Shown one piece after another: positions 3-41,295 of a stretch of DNA of 64,000 bases. The stretch comes from Profundibacter amoris. GTDB taxonomy: Bacteria; Pseudomonadota; Alphaproteobacteria; Rhodobacterales; Rhodobacteraceae. Location of the stretch: positions 1,812,001 through 1,876,000 of the forward strand of contig NZ_CP032125.1 of the NCBI RefSeq assembly GCF_003544895.1, read 5' to 3'. Numbering within the stretch: position 1 is the first letter of the stretch; every line of letters begins with the position of its first letter. A program made the translations under genes and the position numbers. Under the pieces are notes generated by a model. It ran no database searches and had not been told where the DNA came from. It saw only the letters and a program-made list of their open reading frames with translations.

Positions 3-2045
3 AAATTGCAGGCGCAAGAGCAAAAAGCCGCCAAGGTGACGGCGCTTGATTTGCAAATGGACCCATCAGCGCCCGGGTTGCAATTTCACCGGATCAGCAA
101 TTCCAAGGATGCCAATTTCTGGTCAATCCGCGTCAGCCGCGATCTGCGCATCATCGTGCATAAAACCGCAAACAGTTTTTTGATTTGTTTTGTGGGGCAC
201 CACGATGATGCCTATGCATGGGCGGAGCGGCGACGTGTAGACACCCACCCGCGCACAGGGGCCGCCCAAATCGTCGAGGTGCGCGAACGGGTTGAGGAAA
301 TCCCAGTTTATGTGGAAGTGCCCGCCGAAGCACCGCCAGAACCAAAGATATTCGCATCCCTTGCTGAGGATGATTTGCTGGGTGTCGGTGTGCCCGAAGA
401 GTGGCTGAACGATGTGCAAAACGCCACGGAAAACAGTTTCTTTGATCTGCACGACCACCTGCCCGGAGAAGCCTCTGAGGCGCTGTTGAATTTTGCAACG
501 GGTGGCAAGCTGTCGATTGGCTTCCTTGTCGCTTCTGATACAACACCCTTTGAGCATCCCGATGCCATGCGTCGGTTTCGGGCCTTTGACAATGTCGATG
601 AACTTAAAACCGCGCTTGATCTGCCTTGGGAACAATGGATCGTTTTCTTACACCCCTCGCAACGGGCTGTTGTTGAGCGTGTTTTCAACGGTCCTGCACG
701 GGTCACAGGATCGGCGGGCACCGGCAAAACCATTGTCGCCCTACACCGCGCCGCCAGACATCTGCGCGAAGACGCGAATGCGCGGGTATTGCTGACCAGC
801 TTTTCCAGCCCTCTGGCCAACTCGATCAAAGGTAAACTTGCGCTGTTGCTCTCCGAAGAGCAGCACCTACTGGATCGCGCCACGGTTCTTTCTTTTAAGG
901 GAATAGCCAAAGAGCTGTTCATGCTGATCAATGGGCACGAGCCGCGCATCGCCAACGACAGCCAAGTTTCCGATGTCATATCCGCTGCAAAATCCAAGCT
1001 GGACTATCAGGACAACAGTTTGAACTTCCTGCTTTCCGAGTGGCGAAATGTGGTTGATGCTTGGCAGATTTCAGATCTTGAAAGTTATTCATCGGTCCAA
1101 AGAATTGGCCGCAGAAATCGTCTGGGCAATCAGCAACGCGCAAGGTTATGGCCTGTTTTTGAGCAGGCAAAACGGTCAATCAGCAATATGGGACGGACAA
1201 CTTGGGATGAGGTTTTCCAGAGTGTTGCTGACTATTATTTCAGCAAGCCTGAAAAACCATTTAGCCATGTTGTTGTTGATGAATCACAAGACTTAAGCGT
1301 TACCCAACTTCGAATGCTTTCAGCAATCTCCGCTGACAGTGCCAACTGCCTATTTTTTGCTGGTGACATCGGGCAGCGGATTTTTCAAGAACCCTTTTCT
1401 TGGAAATCCCATGGAATAGATATTCGAGGGCGTTCATCCACCTTAAAGGTCAATTACCGTACCTCACACCAAATACGTATGGTTATAGACAAATTGCTCC
1501 CTGAAACCTTACGCGATGCGGATGGCAATGAAGACAGCCGACAAGGCGTGGTTTCTGTCATAAATGGGACCAAGCCAATCTTGCAGGATTTTCCCAACCA
1601 ACAATCAGAGAACACTGCTGTTTCGGAATGGATTAGCAAACAAATATCCCAAGGTGTTGAGCCACATGAAATTGGCATTTTCACACGCGAAACAGACCAA
1701 CTAATTCGTGCACGTAGGGCGGTCCAACAGGCTAATCAATCTGTATGCGAACTATCCGAACGACAAGAAAGAGCTGAAGCTGCTGTCCGGATTGGCACCA
1801 TGCATCTTGCCAAAGGGCTAGAATTCCGCAGCGTCTGCGTTATGGCGTGTGATGAAGGTATTCTTCCATTAGAAAATAGGTTGGACATTTCCGGAGACGA
1901 AGATGAATTAGAGCTTCACTTCGAAACCGAGCGCCACCTATTCTACGTTGCATGCACTAGGGCTAGGGATGATCTGTTGGTAACAAGCGTTAGGCCACGT
2001 TCTGAATTTATCGATGATTTAGAGCAAAGCTTAGTGAGCGAATAA
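3..2045 (+). CDS. UvrD-family helicase with N-terminal RelE-like domain (5' end cut by window)
   Basis: Superfamily 1 DNA helicase of the UvrD/Rep type. The reading frame is open to the left edge, so the true start probably lies a few codons outside. The first ~80 residues resemble a RelE/ParE toxin fold (NFWSIRVSRDLR, then FVGHHDDAYAWAERR). The helicase part shows Walker A GSAGTGKT, the motif II variant DESQDLS, VNYRTS, GTMHLAKGLEF and a C-terminal FYVACTRAR. Proteins with this layout are known as UvrD-helicase domain proteins without a settled role. The next gene is a Fic protein 60 bp downstream. A part in DNA repair or in defence is inference only. Confidence 0.85.
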   Translation, partial: KLQAQEQKAAKVTALDLQMDPSAPGLQFHRISNSKDANFWSIRVSRDLRIIVHKTANSFLICFVGHHDDAYAWAERRRVDTHPRTGAAQIVEVRERVEEIPVYVEVPAEAPPEPKIFASLAEDDLLGVGVPEEWLNDVQNATENSFFDLHDHLPGEASEALLNFATGGKLSIGFLVASDTTPFEHPDAMRRFRAFDNVDELKTALDLPWEQWIVFLHPSQRAVVERVFNGPARVTGSAGTGKTIVALHRAARHLREDANARVLLTSFSSPLANSIKGKLALLLSEEQHLLDRATVLSFKGIAKELFMLINGHEPRIANDSQVSDVISAAKSKLDYQDNSLNFLLSEWRNVVDAWQISDLESYSSVQRIGRRNRLGNQQRARLWPVFEQAKRSISNMGRTTWDEVFQSVADYYFSKPEKPFSHVVVDESQDLSVTQLRMLSAISADSANCLFFAGDIGQRIFQEPFSWKSHGIDIRGRSSTLKVNYRTSHQIRMVIDKLLPETLRDADGNEDSRQGVVSVINGTKPILQDFPNQQSENTAVSEWISKQISQGVEPHEIGIFTRETDQLIRARRAVQQANQSVCELSERQERAEAAVRIGTMHLAKGLEFRSVCVMACDEGILPLENRLDISGDEDELELHFETERHLFYVACTRARDDLLVTSVRPRSEFIDDLEQSLVSE

Positions 2046-2107: not shown

Positions 2108-3223
2108 TTGTATATCTGGGAGTTACCTGAATGGCCCACCCTGAAATGGGATGAGGCCAGCCTTGCCGAACCTCTGGCAACCGTGCGTCATGAGCAAGGT
2201 CGCCTGCTTGGCCGCATGGAGGGGCTGGGTTTTGATCTGCGTGAAGAAGCCAATCTGCAAACTCTGACCCGTGACGTGGTGAAAACCAGCCAGATCGAGG
2301 GCGAGGATCTGGATGCCTCCACCGTGCGCTCCTCTATCGCGCGGCGATTGGGGATCGACATTGGCGCATTGAAACCTGCTGACAGACATGTGGACGGCAT
2401 TGTCGAGGTCATGCTGGATGCCACAGGCAACTACGACGCGCCCCTGACGGATGAGCGCCTCTATGGTTGGCACAGCGCCCTGTTCCCGACTGGACGCAGC
2501 GGCATGGCCAAAATCAGCGTTGGCGCGTGGCGCACGGATGTCAGTGGGTCAATGCTGGTAGTTTCCGGGCCTTATGGGCGTGAACGAGTTCACTACACCG
2601 CCCCCCCCGCCAAACGGCTGGCACCAGAAATGGTAAGGTTTCTAAATTGGTTCAACCAACCACCAACGGTTGACCCCGTTATGAAGGCCGCGCTGGCGCA
2701 TCTGTGGTTCGTGACCATCCACCCGTTTGACGATGGAAACGGTCGTATTGCCCGTGCAATCACCGACATGGCGCTGGCCCGTTCCGAGCGCAGCCCTCAA
2801 CGGTTCTACAGCATGTCCACCCAGATCGAGGCCGAGCGGAAAGCATATTACGACACGCTGGAACGCACCCAGAAAGGCGGACTGGACGTGACTGAATGGA
2901 TGGGCTGGTTTTTAAGCTGCCTGCACCGCGCAATTAACGGAGCGCAGGATGTTTTGGCAGCAGTAACAGCCAAAGCCGCATTCTGGGAGCGGGCCGCAAA
3001 ACTGCCGCTGAACGAGCGCCAGATTAAGGTTTTGAACCGGATGCTGGACGGGTTCGAGGGCAATATGACATCTTCAAAATGGGCCAAGATTGCCAAATGC
3101 TCCCAAGACAGCGCCAATCGGGATATTGCCGTGTTGGTAGGGTATGGGCTGCTGGATAAGGGTCCGGCGGGTGGGCGTAGCACACATTATGTGGTTGGGA
3201 AGTACACCCCAGAAAAGGAATAA
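2108..3223 (+). CDS. Fic family protein (class II, self-inhibited)
   Basis: Predicted AMP-transferase or related nucleotidyl-modifying enzyme acting on a cytosolic protein. The complete Fic motif HPFDDGNGRIAR is at residues 205-216. An inhibitory-helix motif TSQIEG at residues 60-65 fits the (S/T)xxxE(G/N) pattern of class II Fic proteins, which hold themselves inactive. The C-terminal third looks like a winged-helix DNA-binding segment (residues ~300-350). Translation starts at TTG 2108 (MYIWELPEWP, the usual beginning of this family). The target is unknown. It lies between the helicase gene and a hypothetical gene 2 bp downstream, so the three may be one transcript. Confidence 0.88.
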   Translation: MYIWELPEWPTLKWDEASLAEPLATVRHEQGRLLGRMEGLGFDLREEANLQTLTRDVVKTSQIEGEDLDASTVRSSIARRLGIDIGALKPADRHVDGIVEVMLDATGNYDAPLTDERLYGWHSALFPTGRSGMAKISVGAWRTDVSGSMLVVSGPYGRERVHYTAPPAKRLAPEMVRFLNWFNQPPTVDPVMKAALAHLWFVTIHPFDDGNGRIARAITDMALARSERSPQRFYSMSTQIEAERKAYYDTLERTQKGGLDVTEWMGWFLSCLHRAINGAQDVLAAVTAKAAFWERAAKLPLNERQIKVLNRMLDGFEGNMTSSKWAKIAKCSQDSANRDIAVLVGYGLLDKGPAGGRSTHYVVGKYTPEKE

Positions 3224-3984: not shown

Positions 3985-4572
3985 TCAAAACGCCATCACC
4001 CGAAACGTCAGTGAAACCCGCCGCCCACGCGGCACACGTTGCCCGCCAACCAGATCGCTTTTACGCGCTGCAATTGCGTGGGTCCAATCATACCGCGCAG
4101 GGCCTTGCATCAATGCCAAGCTCTGCGGCTCCAAATATTGATCGACAACCTGTTTTGAACTGACTTGCCCAAATCGCATCACACAACCGCCAAGCAGGCT
4201 GATCGAGCCAATTTGCCCGCCGAAACAGGGCACACAATCCACATGCGCCGCAATGCCCTGCCCCGGGTGGTATTCGTTCACAATGACCTGATCCGGCAGC
4301 TTGGGAAAATACCCGTCGGAATACAGCTTGTTGGCAATTTCCAGCAGCCAATCCGGTAGCGGCCCCAAGAAATCCTGCTGCCGCGCCCGCCGTGCTTTGT
4401 AATCATATCGAAACCCGTAATGCTGCACACGACGTTTCAGATCACACAGCCAAACCTGCCGGTCCAGTTCAGAAACCAGCGCTTGCGCCTGTTCGGATGT
4501 CAGGTAGTCCGGAACATAGCTCAACCCTTCGGGCAGATCAGGGGGTAAAAACGAAAGTTGCGAATTTGTCAT
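3985..4572 (-). CDS. AlkB-type 2-oxoglutarate/Fe(II) dioxygenase, ALKBH8-like
   Basis: Oxidative demethylase or hydroxylase acting on nucleic acid. The iron site H-x-D is in GIAAHVDC, the distal histidine in YDWTHAIA, and the 2-oxoglutarate arginines in RRVSLTFR. The sequence around QHYGFRYDY, LPDQVIVNEYHPGQGIAAH and the segment ISLLGGCVMRF follows the ALKBH8 subgroup (tRNA wobble-uridine hydroxylases in eukaryotes) more than classic E. coli AlkB. The start is placed at ATG 4572 (MTNSQLSF); upstream in-frame codons lie inside the preceding gene. It overlaps the 3' end of the DUF2431 gene by 35 bp, so the two are translationally linked. DNA repair is possible, but RNA is the more likely substrate given this partner. 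Confidence 0.88.
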   Translation of the reverse strand: MTNSQLSFLPPDLPEGLSYVPDYLTSEQAQALVSELDRQVWLCDLKRRVQHYGFRYDYKARRARQQDFLGPLPDWLLEIANKLYSDGYFPKLPDQVIVNEYHPGQGIAAHVDCVPCFGGQIGSISLLGGCVMRFGQVSSKQVVDQYLEPQSLALMQGPARYDWTHAIAARKSDLVGGQRVPRGRRVSLTFRVMAF

Positions 4573-5254
4573 GGCTTTCCAGTGCAGATTCATCATTGTC
4601 GGTGTTCTGGTGGATATAGCCAGAATATTGATCAGGATCAAAATCGAAAATTTCAGGCGGCTGATATCCCGCCTTTTTAGCAGCGTCATCCATTTTAAAC
4701 GCGCCCTCATAGTAGGGGCTGTCAACCGTCGAGATAACAATTTCACCCAAGGCTTTCAGATGATCTTTCGCATTTTTTATGAACCTTGTGATCAAAGTAT
4801 GATTTGGATTTTGACCATAGATTGAAGATCGGGATGCTACATTTGGAAATTGGAAAATAATCCTGTCAAACCGGCGATTGCCGAACGTGTCCTTCAGTTT
4901 TGTTGCATCTACATTGGTTTTGACCGTCACACCGAGACTGATGAGTGATTGGGCATTCTGGTATGCCAAATCGTCCAGATCATTTTCTGATTCATAACTG
5001 GTTGATATAAACTGCGATGCTTTTACCAATCTTGCACGCGCCATATTTAATGAAAAACTGAAATTCCCTTCGCCTACAAAGAGTGTCGTTCCATTTTTTA
5101 GATTTCGCTTAAAAGGGTAATGATCTGATCTTTTCTCAATTTTTTTTGTTCCGAGGGACTGAGGAAATTCCAAAACATCAAACTTTGGTAAGCTATTTCC
5201 CCGAACAGCATTGCTAACAGCCTCCGAAAGAGTTTTTCCGCGGTATTCATACAT
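4538..5254 (-). CDS. BMT5-like (DUF2431) Rossmann-fold RNA methyltransferase
   Basis: Resembles the eukaryotic BMT5 25S rRNA uridine-N3 methyltransferase family. Visible signatures: SAM-binding VGEGNFSFS (60-68), NVDATKL (114-120), RFDRIIFQFPNV (128-139), the helix NHTLITRFIKNAK (151-163), GEIVIST (170-176) and the C-terminal YSGYIHQNT. These follow BMT5 in order and spacing. The 238-residue length suits a single catalytic domain. Upstream there is an AT-rich promoter-like stretch with TATACT. The product overlaps the AlkB gene and was probably acquired with it. The reaction (m3U in RNA) is inferred from the family; the bacterial substrate is unknown. Confidence 0.82.
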   Translation of the reverse strand: MYEYRGKTLSEAVSNAVRGNSLPKFDVLEFPQSLGTKKIEKRSDHYPFKRNLKNGTTLFVGEGNFSFSLNMARARLVKASQFISTSYESENDLDDLAYQNAQSLISLGVTVKTNVDATKLKDTFGNRRFDRIIFQFPNVASRSSIYGQNPNHTLITRFIKNAKDHLKALGEIVISTVDSPYYEGAFKMDDAAKKAGYQPPEIFDFDPDQYSGYIHQNTDNDESALESHDKFATFVFTP

Positions 5255-23961: not shown

Positions 23962-26900
23962 TTAACTGCGCGATTTTTCTTCCCTGTACTGGATTGAAGA
24001 AATCAGACCTTCTTTGATCCTTTTGGACAGGTCAGAGAGCCCGAGAGCTCCCAGAACAATTTCGTCTATCTGCTCATGCTCATTCGTCGAAACTTCAGCC
24101 AACGTTCCTAGCGGCGGTCTTGTTTCCAGCATTGCCTTTATCTTCAAAATTTCCGACGCAAATGGGGCAATGACTTTATAAGGAAATGGTAATCTTGCTA
24201 CATCTGTAGCTTCGGATTTCAACATACCCCCACCAAGGTTGGTGCGACCAGACAGCTCCCTAAGAAACCAGAAAAGTGAGGAATTGCAATAAGCCCAAAC
24301 AGCAAGCTCTTCTTCTTCAGTCAAGCCTTGAGGATAAATCTCAACGTAGCTATGAGTATACGTTGAGCACTCATTCATCGCACAGAAATGCCTTCCAATA
24401 CCTCTAGGGAGCACAAACTTTGCCGGAACTTTTCTAGTTTTAGTGAAATCAATCCCCTTGTGCCCATTTTCATCTAGTGAATTCTTCACTGACGAAGAAA
24501 TGTACTTCAAGTCAACAAGAACATCTTCAGTTACTGTGATGACGAAAGAGTTCTTTTTGCGGAAGAACGGAACACACCATTCCTCTTCTAATCCTAGCAC
24601 AAGAAGGTCTTTTCTCGGAATTGCGTGGTCAGCTGTTATGTTCAGGCCTTGACCGAAATTCAAAGCACTCCGTTCATTTAAAACCTGAGCCTGGAGCTTA
24701 AGGATTACGTCTGGCATCCAGATCGGAAGACGGTAGAGAAACCCCCACTTGTTAAGCAGGATTGTTTTATCGTCCTTAGCGTAATATCTAAGATCAATTC
24801 TCGGATCGTCAGTGCTCTGCAAAGATGAAAGGGAGTGTCCAATATTTGCTATATTATCATCAACGTGTATCAAGCGAAGCCCGCCAACACTCTTGGTATT
24901 AGGTCGCGAAAACATAGATATTACGGTGTTGATGTTTGGCCCCCCATCCCCCGAGAAATACTTATACTTGCTATCAACTACGGCTCTAAAATTGGACTTC
25001 TTAAGTAGGAATTCCTGACATTTATCTCCATAATCTGTGTCCAACCACGAGTTTTCCGTGATAAAACATGCGCTACCGGTTGCATTCAGAATCTCTAGTG
25101 CTTTTGGGTAGAAATACATCATGAGGTCTGAACCACGCGGGATCAGACTGGAGCTCTGACCCCACATCTTTTTAAGATGTGCCTGAAATTGAACTTTATC
25201 TTTATCACTAAATTCTTTGGATCGAGACTCGAGATATGGTGGATTGGCTATTACAATATCAAAACCGGCTTTATCCTGGAAGACTTCTGAAAACTCCAAC
25301 TTCCAGACAAAGAATGGTCTGATATTATGTTTTCTTAGCCTTGCAACCTCCTCGAGCTTTCCATTCATTCTGTTCTCAAGCAGAGTGGCCTCAATCAGCT
25401 CCCATTTTAGGTTGTCAATACGTGCCTTGAGGCTTTGCTTTTTTGACCTTTGAGCTTCGGTAACAAATTCTTCAATGCAGCGGTTTAACTCATCCATCTT
25501 TACTTGGATGAGCTTTTTATCGAAACCAAATGCTAGCTGTTCAGCCCCTTTGGAGTCCGTTTTTGTTAAGATGCTTTCGTCGAATAACTCAATACCTTCA
25601 TAGTCTTCCAGAAGGCTGTTTCCCTGCATTATCTTGTGGTCTAGGTTTGGCAAAGGGTGCGGCTCATCTTCATCAACGACCAAAGCAAGCCAAAGCCTAA
25701 GCTTTGCAATCTCTACGGCACCGGGATCAATATCAACTCCATGTATTGAATGTGAAATACTATGGAGCTTGAGTTTATAGGGATTTCGCTCTCTACCGAG
25801 ATGAACGCCTAAAACCTCCCTAGCCTGAACTATCTCATTTAGCATCCCAAGAGGAAATGCCCCTGAACCGACGGCAGGGTCGCAAACCTTTACATCAGAA
25901 AGCGCTTGATCGACGTCTCTTGCTCTTGCTCTGATACTTTCAGGAAGCATAAATTTGTATGTGTCTGTTTCTCTACCGCGTTCGATTACTATGGAATCAA
26001 CTTCGATTACTCTTGAACCTCTGAAAATTAGAACTTCAAGATATTCTCTTCGTATCTCTTTACGAAGGGAATGATACAGATAGTTTATAAGGCTGTCTTG
26101 GCACATATAGTGAACGATTTCTCGTGGTGTATAGAACGTCCCCTTACTCTTTCTATCCTTCACTTCCAGTAGATTTTCGAAGACCTTACCGAGCATCTCA
26201 GGATCAACAGCCACCTCTTTTTCGAGCGGCTCGTTCTCGTTTACCGTGAAGTTGTAACGGTCGAAGATATCAAGGATTCCGTCGCCCGCATCCCCTTCAG
26301 CGGTGCGGTTCGAATTTGAAAAAAGCTCATCAGGAAGACGGATGTTCGTTGTCTCCCATGAGTAGCCGTTCATAGGTTCGAAGAGACCACCGTTCAGAAA
26401 CGGCATCCGGCAGTTGTTAAGGCGCGGGTAGATAGCCTCTACACCTCTATCCTGGGCAAGCGCTTCGTAGAAAAGCGGCTCCAGCACATCATCAAAGAAG
26501 TTTTTTCCATACTTCTCGCGGCGACCAAATAGCTGCCTCAAAAAGTCTTTTGGTCCGGTTCCCCAAGGCTTTCCTGGAGCAACACCGAACCATCCTTTCT
26601 TTTGGAGGAAGTAGAGGAATGCCATCTGCCCAAGCGTCTTCTTGGCAAAATCAACGGTAGTAAGCTCTTTCGCTTCGAAGTCAGCTTTGATGGCTGGATC
26701 GCCTTCCACAAGCTTGTCGAGTGACTCCTTCATTCGGAAAAAGAGCTCGCAGTATTTCTTGAAGAACTCATCGGTGACGCTCTCGATATTGAAAGCCTCT
26801 TCCAGCTCTTTCAGAAGCGGCTTTTGGCTATCCTGGAGCAGGGAGACGAAGCGGCTTTGTACGGTGTGGCTCCCCTCATGACGCCCAATAAGGAACGACC

Positions 26901-27348
26901 AACGTTTCGCGGGCGTTAGCTCCTCTTCCGTCTTTAGCTTTCCGTCCTTGACCTCGAGAGAATACTCGAGCTTCACGAGTGAGAAGCGCCAGTCATGTTG
27001 ATCAGGCGAGAGAAAAGCAACAAGCGCAGCATCTCGACCGTTCTTCTTCAGGTAGTCAGCGATAAAGTTCCTCTGCGCGGTCCGAGCTCGATCAAGCGAG
27101 CTTTCGCGCTGAAGCGTCACCTCAAGGATGTCGAGACTTGTTCCTTCGGCGTCCTGATACGTCCCAAGAATTAGGTATCCTTGAACGAAAGCGCGAAATG
27201 CCTCTCGAACGTACTGCCCATCACGGCGCTTATCGAGAGGGGTATACTCGCCCTTGAAAAGGTTGCTGATAAAGCGAACAAAATACTCGGCGGAGTAGTC
27301 TGCTTCAAATGCGCCTTGTACGAGTGAAATTGCTTCAGCTTTGTTCAT
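23962..27348 (-). CDS. Eco57I-type DNA methyltransferase of a two-gene restriction-like system
   Basis: An 1128-residue N6-adenine methyltransferase of the type IIG/ISP style. SAM motif I is DPAVGSGAF (490-498), the catalytic motif IV NPPY (702-705), and KGTFYTPREIVHYM (402-415) is the usual helical entry segment. The C-terminal ~350 residues look like a target recognition domain. The N-terminal ~150 residues (LDILEVTLQ, RTAQRNFIADYL) are typical of these large methylases but show no complete PD-(D/E)xK site. The start ATG overlaps the helicase stop (TAATG), so both are made together. The nuclease would come from the partner. Confidence 0.88.
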   Translation of the reverse strand: MNKAEAISLVQGAFEADYSAEYFVRFISNLFKGEYTPLDKRRDGQYVREAFRAFVQGYLILGTYQDAEGTSLDILEVTLQRESSLDRARTAQRNFIADYLKKNGRDAALVAFLSPDQHDWRFSLVKLEYSLEVKDGKLKTEEELTPAKRWSFLIGRHEGSHTVQSRFVSLLQDSQKPLLKELEEAFNIESVTDEFFKKYCELFFRMKESLDKLVEGDPAIKADFEAKELTTVDFAKKTLGQMAFLYFLQKKGWFGVAPGKPWGTGPKDFLRQLFGRREKYGKNFFDDVLEPLFYEALAQDRGVEAIYPRLNNCRMPFLNGGLFEPMNGYSWETTNIRLPDELFSNSNRTAEGDAGDGILDIFDRYNFTVNENEPLEKEVAVDPEMLGKVFENLLEVKDRKSKGTFYTPREIVHYMCQDSLINYLYHSLRKEIRREYLEVLIFRGSRVIEVDSIVIERGRETDTYKFMLPESIRARARDVDQALSDVKVCDPAVGSGAFPLGMLNEIVQAREVLGVHLGRERNPYKLKLHSISHSIHGVDIDPGAVEIAKLRLWLALVVDEDEPHPLPNLDHKIMQGNSLLEDYEGIELFDESILTKTDSKGAEQLAFGFDKKLIQVKMDELNRCIEEFVTEAQRSKKQSLKARIDNLKWELIEATLLENRMNGKLEEVARLRKHNIRPFFVWKLEFSEVFQDKAGFDIVIANPPYLESRSKEFSDKDKVQFQAHLKKMWGQSSSLIPRGSDLMMYFYPKALEILNATGSACFITENSWLDTDYGDKCQEFLLKKSNFRAVVDSKYKYFSGDGGPNINTVISMFSRPNTKSVGGLRLIHVDDNIANIGHSLSSLQSTDDPRIDLRYYAKDDKTILLNKWGFLYRLPIWMPDVILKLQAQVLNERSALNFGQGLNITADHAIPRKDLLVLGLEEEWCVPFFRKKNSFVITVTEDVLVDLKYISSSVKNSLDENGHKGIDFTKTRKVPAKFVLPRGIGRHFCAMNECSTYTHSYVEIYPQGLTEEEELAVWAYCNSSLFWFLRELSGRTNLGGGMLKSEATDVARLPFPYKVIAPFASEILKIKAMLETRPPLGTLAEVSTNEHEQIDEIVLGALGLSDLSKRIKEGLISSIQYREEKSRS

Positions 27349-30300
27349 TATTCTACCGCGTTAAAATATTCAGAAAGTATGATCTCTTTGGCTGCACCCC
27401 TACCCTGCCCTTGCTCGGCTTGGTTTGGCTGCAAGAAGGCCATTGGGAGCTCTAGCTTCAGGAGGGTTAAAAGCTTCAGTGGGTTCACCAAGAGCTCTGG
27501 GGTATTCTCGACCTTCGCAAAAATTCTCTGCGAGATTTTCTTTGGAATCCCACCAGCATCAAGCTCAGAAATGACATTCGAAATGTACTCCTCATCATCC
27601 TCTGTGAAGCCCTGAAAATTCCGCACTTGCTTTGCTTTCAGCATTTTCGAAAGCCGCGCAGCGTTGTCTCTGCTTCCACGTTTAGTCGAGAACTCCTCTT
27701 CTTCTATTTCGGTTGATCGAGTAAGCATCTGCGAATTTTTCTCAAGAAGCGAGTAGAAGGTTTTATCAAGCTTCGACCTTTTCTCTTGAGCATCTGCTTT
27801 GAAAGCATGGGCTGCTTGAATGAAGTCGAGCTCTTCTGCCACATTGATATCATCCGCGCTGACTAGGAAAAATTTCTGAAGTTTCCCCTTGCGGAAATAG
27901 GTCAACAGGTTGGAAACAGAACCTTTTGATTTTCGAGCTGTGCGAGCTTTCTTCGGGAGACGTTTCACCTTCTCAAAGAGCGATGGGTTCTCGTCTCGAA
28001 CAAGACGTATCTCTTGAAGGTACTTGAGTTCACTCTCTGGCTCGTCCCCTCCTTCGATGGTCTCTTTAGATAGAAGTTGGCTAAAGAGACTATGTGCCTC
28101 TAACTCCTCACTATCAGTTAGCAAGCGAGCATCAGCCCCGAGAAGAGAGATGAAAGCCGCAATCTTCGCTTCAGCGGCTTCCTTTAACTTAATATGATCG
28201 TTTGACTGATCTGTCGGGAAGAATGTGTAGGTGTGTATCTTCTCGTGTTTTGTATCTACGCGGTTGATCCGCCCTACCCGCTGCATGATGCGCGTCGGGT
28301 TCCACGGGATATCATAGTTAATAACCACGTTTGCGCGGTGAAGGTTGGCACCTTCAGCAAGCACATCGGTCGTGATGAGTAGTTTAAAGTCATCTTTTGG
28401 GTGCTTCGCGTTAGCGTCGAAGTTCGCGATGACTTCTTCTCGGTCAGAAGCGGAGTTGGAGCTAGTAAAGCAGACAATCTGCCCTGCGAATTCATCTTGG
28501 AGTTGTGCCTTGAGGTATTCCGCTGTTTCCTTGGACTCTGAAAAGATGATCGACTTTCCGTCATGAATTGGCGTTTCCTTTTTCAGTGCATCCTTAAACG
28601 CGAGTATCTTGGGGTCTCTTTTGACGGTTTTCCACATATCCTTGATTTCTTGCAGGATATGCCGATCAGCTTGAAGCTCCAGCTTCAGCTTATCATCAAA
28701 CTCATCAGCCGGAAATTTCTCGGCCTTTCCTTCTTCCACGAGCCGGTCAACGCCATCTAGGTCACCGCGTTCAAGATACTCAAAAATCTTCTGCGTGTGT
28801 TTCGCGCTGACGTAGACGGTTCCATCCTCAAACTCTCGGATGAAGCGATCATAAGATGCGATAAAGCGGTCTAGAGTCTGCGTGAATGCAAAGAAACTAC
28901 TCTCAAGTCGCTTAATCAGAAGCATTTTCATGAACTTCATCATGTTCTGCTGACTTTGACGCTCCATGGCTGTCATACTCCCCTTATAGTGGAGCATTGG
29001 CGTGTAACGCGCATACATGAAGTCTTGCGTCACGAGCTCTATGGTACGGAAGAAGATGCGATCCTCTTCTGGGTTGAACTCATAGAAAATTGGTTGGGGT
29101 TCAGCCACTTCAGGAAAACTCATTCCCTGCTGCCGGAGGTCATCACCGTAATATTCCGTGATTTCTTTACGGGTTCGGCGCACCATCAGGTGCTTCAGAA
29201 CTCGGTCTCGGATGAGTGCTGCGTTCTCCTTCGTAGCCGCAATATATTCTTTCTTATCTGCTTGGCGATCCAAGCCCTTGAGCTTGCGCTCGAGACTCTT
29301 GAAAAAGCCTTCAAGGTCCGGAAGGTTGGGGATCGTGCTTTGCCGCGTTTTCTGGAACAATTTGATCTGAGCCAGTAGGTCACTTGGCTTATTGTTATAC
29401 GGTGTTGCCGTGACCAAAATCACCTTCTTACCCCGACATATTTCTGCAAGCTTTGCATAGGTATCTGTTTCTTCAGAGCGAAACCGATGTGCCTCATCAA
29501 TGAGTACTACATCATAGTCCTGGTGCTCATTCTTGCGGATTATTCGGTCGAGAATTCCGACGGACCGGCAAGTGTAATCCCGAGCCCTAAATCCAAAGGT
29601 TCTAAAAGCGTTCTCCCAGCTTCCTGGGTTGTCTTCGTCAATCAAATGGGGCGGTGCTAAGACAAGAACTCGTCGGTTCAGTTCTTGGCACAACATCGTT
29701 CCCATGAAGGTCTTACCTAGACCCACAACATCCGACAAAAATACGCCGCCGTATTCATCGACGATCTTGCGAGCGTTGATAACCGCATGGTCCTGATACT
29801 TCAGCTCCTTGAAGTTCTCTGGCCGATAGCGGTGGTCGAGGGCCTCTTCGTTTATTTCTTCCCTAAAATATTCATAGAGAAATTTTAGGTAAAGCTCGTA
29901 CGGGCTGATATCTTCTCTTAGCCAAGTGTCCTTCTGAATGGTCTCGACGTACTTATCGCTGACATCGACCCCCTTTGCCCAAAGCTCTTCGAATTTATCT
30001 CGGGCAAATTCATAATCTGATCGGTTTTTCAACTCCACGTTAAACTCGAGATTCTCGACCAAGCCATTTCTCGTAAAGTTGCTTGACCCGGTGATCACCC
30101 GACCCATGTCCATCTGGCCTTCTTTAAAGCCCATCACGTAAAGTTTTGAGTGAATCTTCTCCTCTGGATAGGCGCGAATTTCGAGCTTTCCCGACTTTAG
30201 CCATTCGAGAAATTTCTTCACTCCGACTTCGACATGAAGTTCATTTTCCGAGAGCTCCATCTCCTCCTTCACGGCATTTGAAAACTGGTCACGGGTCTCC

Positions 30301-30554
30301 TTATGGGACTGTATCCTCTGAAGGAGGTCATACGTTTCTCGGTTTGTGCTGATACCGATTAAGATTCGAATGCGATCTGTACCTTCAAGTGAAGGGTACA
30401 TTGCGTGAAAGCCACTTGTGTAAAAGTAGCCAACCAGAACATCAAAATACTGGGTTGCCTTGATGAGTGTTGCAAACCTATCTCTCAGATTGCCCGCTTC
30501 ATCGTTCGTAATGAACGTTAGATCATTGTTAGTTATTGTTGTATTTTGTTTCAA
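27348..30554 (-). CDS. PLD-nuclease/SF2 helicase of the two-gene restriction-like system
   Basis: A 1068-residue protein. A phospholipase-D-like domain with one HxK motif (IHSKLYVMG, 134-142) and GSSNFTRNG (156-164) precedes an SNF2/SF2 translocase with Walker A VGLGKT (277-282), DEAH (353-356), VTATPYNN and the C-terminal motifs TTDVLAEGANLH and QRVGRINRV. Starts at TTG 30554, with no ATG in frame near it. One HKD half-site per chain suggests a dimeric nuclease. It probably translocates on DNA and cuts unmodified phage DNA, while its partner methylates host sites. Distinct from DISARM and Mokosh in gene content. Confidence 0.85.
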   Translation of the reverse strand: MKQNTTITNNDLTFITNDEAGNLRDRFATLIKATQYFDVLVGYFYTSGFHAMYPSLEGTDRIRILIGISTNRETYDLLQRIQSHKETRDQFSNAVKEEMELSENELHVEVGVKKFLEWLKSGKLEIRAYPEEKIHSKLYVMGFKEGQMDMGRVITGSSNFTRNGLVENLEFNVELKNRSDYEFARDKFEELWAKGVDVSDKYVETIQKDTWLREDISPYELYLKFLYEYFREEINEEALDHRYRPENFKELKYQDHAVINARKIVDEYGGVFLSDVVGLGKTFMGTMLCQELNRRVLVLAPPHLIDEDNPGSWENAFRTFGFRARDYTCRSVGILDRIIRKNEHQDYDVVLIDEAHRFRSEETDTYAKLAEICRGKKVILVTATPYNNKPSDLLAQIKLFQKTRQSTIPNLPDLEGFFKSLERKLKGLDRQADKKEYIAATKENAALIRDRVLKHLMVRRTRKEITEYYGDDLRQQGMSFPEVAEPQPIFYEFNPEEDRIFFRTIELVTQDFMYARYTPMLHYKGSMTAMERQSQQNMMKFMKMLLIKRLESSFFAFTQTLDRFIASYDRFIREFEDGTVYVSAKHTQKIFEYLERGDLDGVDRLVEEGKAEKFPADEFDDKLKLELQADRHILQEIKDMWKTVKRDPKILAFKDALKKETPIHDGKSIIFSESKETAEYLKAQLQDEFAGQIVCFTSSNSASDREEVIANFDANAKHPKDDFKLLITTDVLAEGANLHRANVVINYDIPWNPTRIMQRVGRINRVDTKHEKIHTYTFFPTDQSNDHIKLKEAAEAKIAAFISLLGADARLLTDSEELEAHSLFSQLLSKETIEGGDEPESELKYLQEIRLVRDENPSLFEKVKRLPKKARTARKSKGSVSNLLTYFRKGKLQKFFLVSADDINVAEELDFIQAAHAFKADAQEKRSKLDKTFYSLLEKNSQMLTRSTEIEEEEFSTKRGSRDNAARLSKMLKAKQVRNFQGFTEDDEEYISNVISELDAGGIPKKISQRIFAKVENTPELLVNPLKLLTLLKLELPMAFLQPNQAEQGQGRGAAKEIILSEYFNAVE

Positions 30555-39621: not shown

Positions 39622-41291
<1,670 letters not shown>

Positions 41292-41295
<4 letters not shown>

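Follow-up and report, generated by a model that had tools for sequence, protein, structure and literature searches.

A conserved gene pair of a BMT5-like methyltransferase and an ALKBH8-like dioxygenase as a candidate toxin-antitoxin module

Methyltransferase and AlkB genes of the Profundibacter amoris window

A 64,000-nucleotide stretch of Profundibacter amoris DNA (contig NZ_CP032125.1, positions 1,812,001 to 1,876,000; referred to here as the window) carries two overlapping genes on its minus strand, which encode a BMT5-like methyltransferase and an ALKBH8-like dioxygenase and which we discuss as a candidate toxin-antitoxin pair. Both open reading frames were found where the original prediction, made from the DNA letters, had placed them. 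The upstream gene (4538..5254, 238 aa) would encode the toxin, or writer, a class I S-adenosylmethionine (SAM) methyltransferase, as judged from its Pfam match, fold model and conserved residues. The downstream gene (3985..4572, 195 aa from the ATG at 4572) would encode the antitoxin, or eraser, an Fe(II)/2-oxoglutarate (2OG) dioxygenase assigned by Pfam, Protein Data Bank (PDB) and fold comparisons. The 3′ end of the methyltransferase gene overlaps the AlkB start by 35 bp (4538..4572, minus strand), as predicted; this value presupposes the ATG at 4572, and the open frame extends further upstream. A relaxase, an RP-C-type replication protein, a type IV secretion system coupling protein and a serine recombinase are encoded in the same window, in agreement with the mobile element that had been proposed as carrier of the pair.

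The Pfam family PF10354 (BMT5-like), of which we take DUF2431 to be the older name, covers the methyltransferase over profile positions 1-167 of 168 (E 3.7e-32, 112.4 bits with a cut-off of 24.7), confirming its resemblance to BMT5. An AlphaFold2 model of the protein (pLDDT 83.6) is predicted to adopt the class I SAM-methyltransferase fold. Methyltransferases are its top structural matches (VIA; best Z 13.8, rmsd 3.5, 156 aligned residues), and Z reaches at least 8 for 942 of 1000 Foldseek-ranked chains, again with methyltransferases in the top rows. A PDB sequence search yielded no match at E 1, and no BMT5 structure stands among the VIA-align rows, which we count as no evidence against the assignment. 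Across 55 aligned sequences, the motifs GEGN (61-64) and FQF (134-136) are at least 90% conserved and P137 is invariant. We infer uridine as the methylated base from the Pfam family name alone, and N3-methylation of rRNA uridine is a putative activity.

The AlkB product is matched by PF13532 (2OG-FeII_Oxy_2, E 1e-22), and human ALKBH8 is its best PDB sequence match (E 4.2e-24), compared with E 0.011 for E. coli AlkB. By fold (model pLDDT 94.2), ALKBH6 (Z 24.8) and ALKBH8 (Z 24.4) tie as its closest relatives, whereas DNA-repair AlkB proteins reach Z 19-20. The ALKBH8 resemblance noted earlier is thus borne out, and the protein stands nearer to ALKBH8 and ALKBH6 than to DNA-repair AlkB by sequence and fold alike. 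NCBIfam AlkB models, with cut-offs of 231 and 267, score it at 22-25 bits. The iron-binding triad H110, D112 and H165 (HXD...H) is invariant among 63 AlkB sequences, and both arginines of the RX5R motif, R185 and R191, are at least 90% conserved. The stretch KRRVQHYGYRYDY, conserved in the same alignment, may form part of the substrate lid by comparison with PMC4051686. A second PF13532 gene in the genome (G000:C1:3155016-3155585; E 1.1e-49 versus 5.4e-21 for the paired AlkB) is probably the housekeeping AlkB.

Conserved pairing and one-sided loss of the methyltransferase

A pattern-based search with a methyltransferase alignment as query, run over 84,980 species genomes, returned 74 loci, 67 from Alphaproteobacteria (two labelled only Pseudomonadota) and 7 from elsewhere. 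Two loci, L074 and L075, were left out of the testable set because their contigs stop at the methyltransferase and no AlkB was found. In 65/65 testable loci of Alphaproteobacteria (two only Pseudomonadota), the methyltransferase gene is followed on its own strand by an ALKBH8-like AlkB gene no more than 1 kb downstream. AlkB is 749 bp away in L044 and a remnant in L039. It extends past the contig end in L017, L035 and L038, and L025 harbors two pairs in tandem. Measured by a nearest-ATG heuristic, the genes overlap in 30 of the 46 pairs with a measurable start, by 4 bp in 13 of those 30. PF10354 exceeds its cut-off in 3 of 295 genomes of the family, all three with AlkB, and in 9 of 385 genomes of the class (12 at E 0.001). 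All nine contain AlkB, eight adjacent to the methyltransferase gene and one at ~1.5 kb; of the three class genomes below the cut-off (L014-L016), none has AlkB at up to 1.5 kb. Genome G1576 gave a further match under the cut-off (22.3 bits), which was rejected, being weak also with our own profile. The adjacency that the original prediction had named as a check is therefore conserved: pairing is far beyond chance, and coupling is near-universal in Alphaproteobacteria.

This tightly linked two-gene unit is patchy and mobile, as toxin-antitoxin modules are. In locus L018, the pair sits on a small contig that resembles a plasmid, with a replication initiator and a terminal repeat of 127 bp. Plasmid records contained one distant methyltransferase, without an AlkB neighbor; phage records matched neither gene, and viral contigs held no methyltransferase relative. 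Neighboring open reading frames (ORFs) were collected by a heuristic (224) and Pfam-scanned in part (134). Each Pfam family is limited to at most three of the 134, the commonest being ParD, ParE, Fic and the integrase arm domain (three each), so the pair stands alone.

When genes do decay, it is mostly the methyltransferase that is affected. Among the 67 scan loci, it is broken or truncated next to an intact AlkB in ten (L050, L055, L058, L067, L069, L078, L080, L082, L083 and L084). The reverse holds in one, L021, where AlkB carries a frameshift at its very end (sign test p 0.012). Both genes are damaged in L029 and L039, and the count leaves out the ambiguous L079 and genes cut by contig ends. 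Adding L011, L012 and L013 from other samples gives 13 versus 1 (p 0.0018), with both genes damaged in L004. The methyltransferase is thus more readily lost than AlkB, as expected of a toxin compared with its antitoxin.

In the reverse direction, starting from AlkB, the 385 class genomes contain 16 ALKBH8-like loci with an E of 1e-40 or lower. Eight adjoin a BMT5-like gene, one lies ~1.5 kb from one and one is beside a different methyltransferase; four have no partner (no BMT5-like gene, nor methyltransferase recognized by reading, within 1.5 kb), one is at a contig edge and one is fused to a large protein. Among the 12 AlkB loci in the family of a Neorhizobium genome (247 genomes), the partner is intact in three, a remnant in two and missing in seven, one of which has a stop in AlkB. 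The genus of a Rickettsia endosymbiont (23 genomes) has six such loci, with one intact partner, one broken and none in four; three of the latter AlkBs are shortened. An AlkB tree of 77 rows, built by a quick method and with many weak forks, requires nine changes of the label “BMT5-like partner present”. The unpaired L102, L111, L115 and L117, rows L108 and L124 of genome G394, and the Picosynechococcus rows described below sit among paired AlkBs, whereas L103, L112 and L120 have no firm placement and L093 and L125 are remote. Because unpaired rows fall among paired ones, with L117 sister to the paired L010 of the same genus group, repeated loss of the methyltransferase with retention of AlkB is probable.

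The ratio of nonsynonymous to synonymous substitution rates (dN/dS), where computable, is 0.07-0.34 for both genes (ten locus comparisons), apart from one methyltransferase at 0.88 with dS 0.03. The methyltransferase and AlkB trees co-vary with r 0.72 over 49 pairs (permutation maximum 0.45), and with r 0.69 over 38 pairs once Rhodobacterales-like rows are removed (maximum 0.53); shared descent contributes to this signal.

Toxin-like fusions and other partners of AlkB

BMT5-like domains also form the ends of large secreted proteins. One of these, from Gemmataceae, is at least 2,860 aa long, and its BMT5-like domain (2679-2834) directly follows a pretoxin HINT domain (PT-HINT, 2539-2666), itself preceded by Ig-like, cadherin-like and PKD domains. 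In Crossiella, the BMT5-like domain is the C-terminus of a 1,995-aa eCIS_core protein whose gene is adjoined by Phage_base_V and gp25 genes. A genome of the same family (G1534) encodes a 2,105-aa counterpart (eCIS_core 93-166, BMT5-like 1924-2082) in a syntenic contractile-injection locus. Directly after each secreted BMT5-like protein lies a gene of a ~190-aa family (L174:8274-8852, L085:8498-9097 and L081:8552-9109), which we call immunity-like from its position and one weak SUKH match: a single member resembles SMI1/KNR4 (SUKH-1) at E 0.1, below the cut-off. Identity within this family is 43% between the two eCIS loci and 30% and 25% between these and Gemmataceae (single-comparison E 6e-18 and 3e-11). 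A hidden Markov model of the gene matched only its own loci among ORFs of the other collected loci. By sequence, these loci display the apparent layout of a toxin domain followed by a gene of a candidate immunity family. Crossiella additionally has an ALKBH8-like AlkB gene, encoded on the opposite strand ~560 bp past the toxin-like gene. Chance is an unlikely explanation for this meeting, because PF10354 is so rare there: it is otherwise absent from 296 genomes of the phylum and exceeds its cut-off in 2 of 160 genomes of the family.

AlkB can also be found next to a methyltransferase of another kind. On three Picosynechococcus plasmids (L104, L105 and L106, 5031-6555), the start of an ALKBH8-like AlkB gene follows a different class I methyltransferase at a distance of 31 bp; this methyltransferase is PADLOC C3a159 in the two plasmids scanned (L104 and L106; E 3.7e-118 and 6.8e-125). 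The surrounding regions carry type III CRISPR genes, or reverse transcriptase, abortive infection (Abi) and restriction genes. In genome G553, AlkB follows a distant relative of the same methyltransferase (E 1.4e-09). AlkB appears to pair with methyltransferases more widely, as befits an eraser. The Picosynechococcus methyltransferase is itself preceded by an AAA_33 protein (scanned in L104 and L106, kinase-like by reading).

A search of viral contigs identified 26 with a solitary ALKBH8-like AlkB, none with the BMT5-like methyltransferase in the stretch examined. Thirteen of the 26 have a portal-like gene of one family (labelled by reading) beside AlkB. In these viral or provirus contigs (L144, L145, L147, L149-L152, L154, L156, L159 and L161-L163), protease- and capsid-like genes, likewise labelled by reading, often come after the portal-like gene, possibly forming a gene-transfer-agent or phage head cluster. 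In locus L120 (genome G570), an ALKBH8-like AlkB forms the C-terminal part of a longer protein (at least 689 aa), for which PADLOC gave no match.

Proposed mechanism, rival explanations and relation to known systems

On balance, we lean towards reading the pair as a toxin-antitoxin module that works like DarTG, with a methyltransferase toxin and a demethylase antitoxin. The BMT5-like protein would transfer a methyl group from SAM to a nucleic acid, most likely to the N3 position of a uridine (or cytidine) of rRNA or tRNA, where the mark would block base pairing and halt growth. The downstream gene, with its overlapping start, would supply the ALKBH8-like dioxygenase, and this enzyme would oxidize the methyl group off, so that the cell survives. 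Carried on a mobile element, the pair could punish its own loss, or it may serve in competition or against phages. Its support comes from the 65/65 pairing, the overlaps, the toxin-like fusions with their immunity-like neighbor, the AlkB near the Crossiella fusion, the one-sided loss, the tree co-variation, the second methyltransferase partner, the plasmid cargo of L018 and removal of 3-methylcytosine (m3C) from DNA by a Roseobacter homolog (PMC4051686). We infer the enzymatic activity, the toxicity, the methylated base and nucleic acid, and the reversal of that mark by AlkB. Plausible, if short of probable, is the wider proposal of a new class of toxin-antitoxin and toxin-immunity systems that act by reversible methylation on the Watson-Crick face. 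In it, a BMT5-like toxin would N3-methylate uridine (or cytidine) of rRNA or tRNA and so halt growth, the ALKBH8-like enzyme would demethylate it, and secreted proteins of the eCIS and HINT types would have acquired the toxin domain by exchange.

A writer and an eraser of N3-methylpyrimidines would fit chemically, because yeast BMT5 makes 3-methyluridine (m3U) in rRNA (PMC7694415), the AlkB relative FTO removes m3U (PMC11431407), and Roseobacter ALKBH8 removes m3C. According to PMC4051686, the Roseobacter denitrificans protein repairs m3C in single- and double-stranded DNA on a par with the positive control, does not repair 1-methyladenine, and leaves 5-methoxycarbonylmethyluridine (mcm5U) in tRNA unmodified. 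The strain used there, OCh 114, harbors a 5.8-kb plasmid, pTB4, with an ALKBH8-like gene that groups with the paired AlkBs and has no adjacent BMT5-like gene; its product is likely the protein tested. The gene upstream of AlkB on pTB4 was considered as a BMT5-like remnant and ruled out.

Several observations weigh against a toxin and its antidote. Distant BMT5-like genes of Chlamydiae, Legionellales and Pseudoalteromonas have no AlkB, and two of the three secreted proteins, those of G1534 and Gemmataceae, lack it in the stretch examined. Solitary AlkBs are common (7/12 loci of the Neorhizobium genome's family, 4/6 of the Rickettsia endosymbiont's genus, and the viral contigs), and AlkB therefore also serves other purposes. 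Of the ten broken methyltransferases, seven come from metagenome assemblies, leaving 3 versus 0 among isolates (p 0.25); assembly errors are possible in such cases, but these should affect both genes. Roseobacter ALKBH8 repairs etheno adducts too, the m3C assay was on DNA, and m3U appears nowhere in the text of PMC4051686. The same source reports that bacterial ALKBH8 proteins failed to rescue RNA phage treated with methyl methanesulfonate (MMS), which speaks against general RNA demethylation but not against demethylation at one defined site. It also describes an Agrobacterium ALKBH8 knock-out as viable and not sensitive to MMS or chloroacetaldehyde, a gene that may be paired or solitary.

The original prediction had offered the pair as either a writer and eraser of uridine methylation or two steps of one RNA modification. 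The former gains support, in the form of a toxin and its antidote, which had not been named; the latter fits less well, because of the toxin-like fusions, the loss confined to the methyltransferase and the inactivity of the tested homolog on mcm5U (PMC4051686). Two consecutive hypermodification steps, with the methyltransferase making a methylated uridine derivative and AlkB hydroxylating it without removal, would amount to a split version of eukaryotic ALKBH8, which has its own methyltransferase and AlkB domains. The proximity of the window AlkB to ALKBH8 and ALKBH6 by sequence and fold, the conserved KRRVQHYGYRYDY with its tentative lid assignment, and the preference of PMC4051686 for an RNA modification role of canonical bacterial ALKBH8s, whose physiological substrate it calls unknown, are all compatible with this scheme. 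We nevertheless consider it unlikely, given that the Roseobacter protein is inactive on mcm5U and demethylates m3C, that the Agrobacterium knock-out leaves tRNA-Gly(UCC) unchanged (both PMC4051686), that 9/385 class genomes over the cut-off make a patchy distribution, that the same methyltransferase domain terminates toxin-like secreted proteins, and that AlkB also adjoins an unrelated methyltransferase.

A non-toxic epitranscriptomic switch, in which writer and eraser reversibly tune translation under stress without growth arrest, would draw on the same pairing, co-variation and overlap as a toxin-antitoxin module, and on the low dN/dS of both genes (bar the one methyltransferase at 0.88). 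The toxin-like fusions with their immunity-like neighbor and the one-sided methyltransferase loss point to harm instead, and no conserved regulator emerged among the 134 scanned neighbor ORFs, making such a switch rather improbable. The mobile, toxin-antitoxin-rich settings, the defense-like surroundings of the Picosynechococcus AlkB and its other methyltransferase, and the solitary AlkBs of very long viral contigs bring to mind an anti-phage module. The methyltransferase would then mark phage or host RNA during infection while AlkB protects the host, and solitary phage AlkBs would be counter-defense. Against PADLOC-DB 2.0.0, the window AlkB has no match and the methyltransferase a partial one to mads_2 alone (E 1.2e-05), so that neither is matched confidently; moreover, the 13 viral AlkBs beside a portal-like gene may be passengers of a structural cluster. 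We regard this as the least probable of the explanations.

If read correctly as a toxin-antitoxin module, the pair shares with DarT/DarG the use of two enzymes for covalent modification of a nucleic acid and its removal. It differs in chemistry: DarTG combines ADP-ribosylation of DNA with a macrodomain protein (PMC5179494), the pair a SAM methyltransferase with an Fe(II)/2OG dioxygenase, and neither DUF4433 nor the macrodomain is matched by the window pair in the Pfam scan. Like the bacterial ALKBH8 group, the window protein consists of an AlkB domain without RNA recognition motif (RRM) or methyltransferase domain; unlike here, PMC4051686, in the portion available to us, treats these proteins singly and names no partner gene. 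The methyltransferase falls in the Pfam family named after yeast BMT5, whereas BMT5 and BMT6 act on yeast 25S/28S rRNA (PMC7694415) and the bacterial genes are patchy, mobile and AlkB-paired. A parallel to polymorphic toxins would lie in the C-terminal position of the domain behind HINT or within eCIS_core proteins and in the immunity-like gene that adjoins it there; in the window, by contrast, the domain stands alone and AlkB occupies the place of the immunity gene. In the 300,000 of 357,715 characters covered, a polymorphic toxin review (PMC3482391) contains no AlkB, BMT5 or methyltransferase. Judging from top-ranked titles and the openings of abstracts, no paper among those listed in searches of the openly licensed PMC literature describes the pair.

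The original observation was right, and it is larger than first described. Many bacterial ALKBH8s travel with a BMT5-like methyltransferase, and their substrate should be whatever that neighbor methylates; if true, this would explain the function of a large share of these proteins. Methylation with oxidative demethylation would likewise be a new chemistry for writer-eraser toxin-antitoxin systems such as DarTG, with a toxin domain common to contractile-injection and HINT-type proteins.

Further genes of the window lie close to the pair or on its element. A UvrD-like helicase (6-2045, plus strand) has a weakly ParE-like N-terminus (E 0.076) and PADLOC matches to GajB and NERD-UvrD. Two genes from the pair, a Fic protein with a DUF4172 N-terminus (2108-3223, plus strand) matches PADLOC SoFic at E 8e-43. 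On the minus strand, 23962-30554 encodes a 1068-aa PLD-nuclease/helicase beside a 1128-aa protein, restriction-modification-like by reading only, and may be a phage-defense unit on the element of the pair. The open frame of the serine recombinase (39622-41295, plus strand) spans a tRNA-Arg gene on the minus strand (41153-41229), a possible insertion end of the element.
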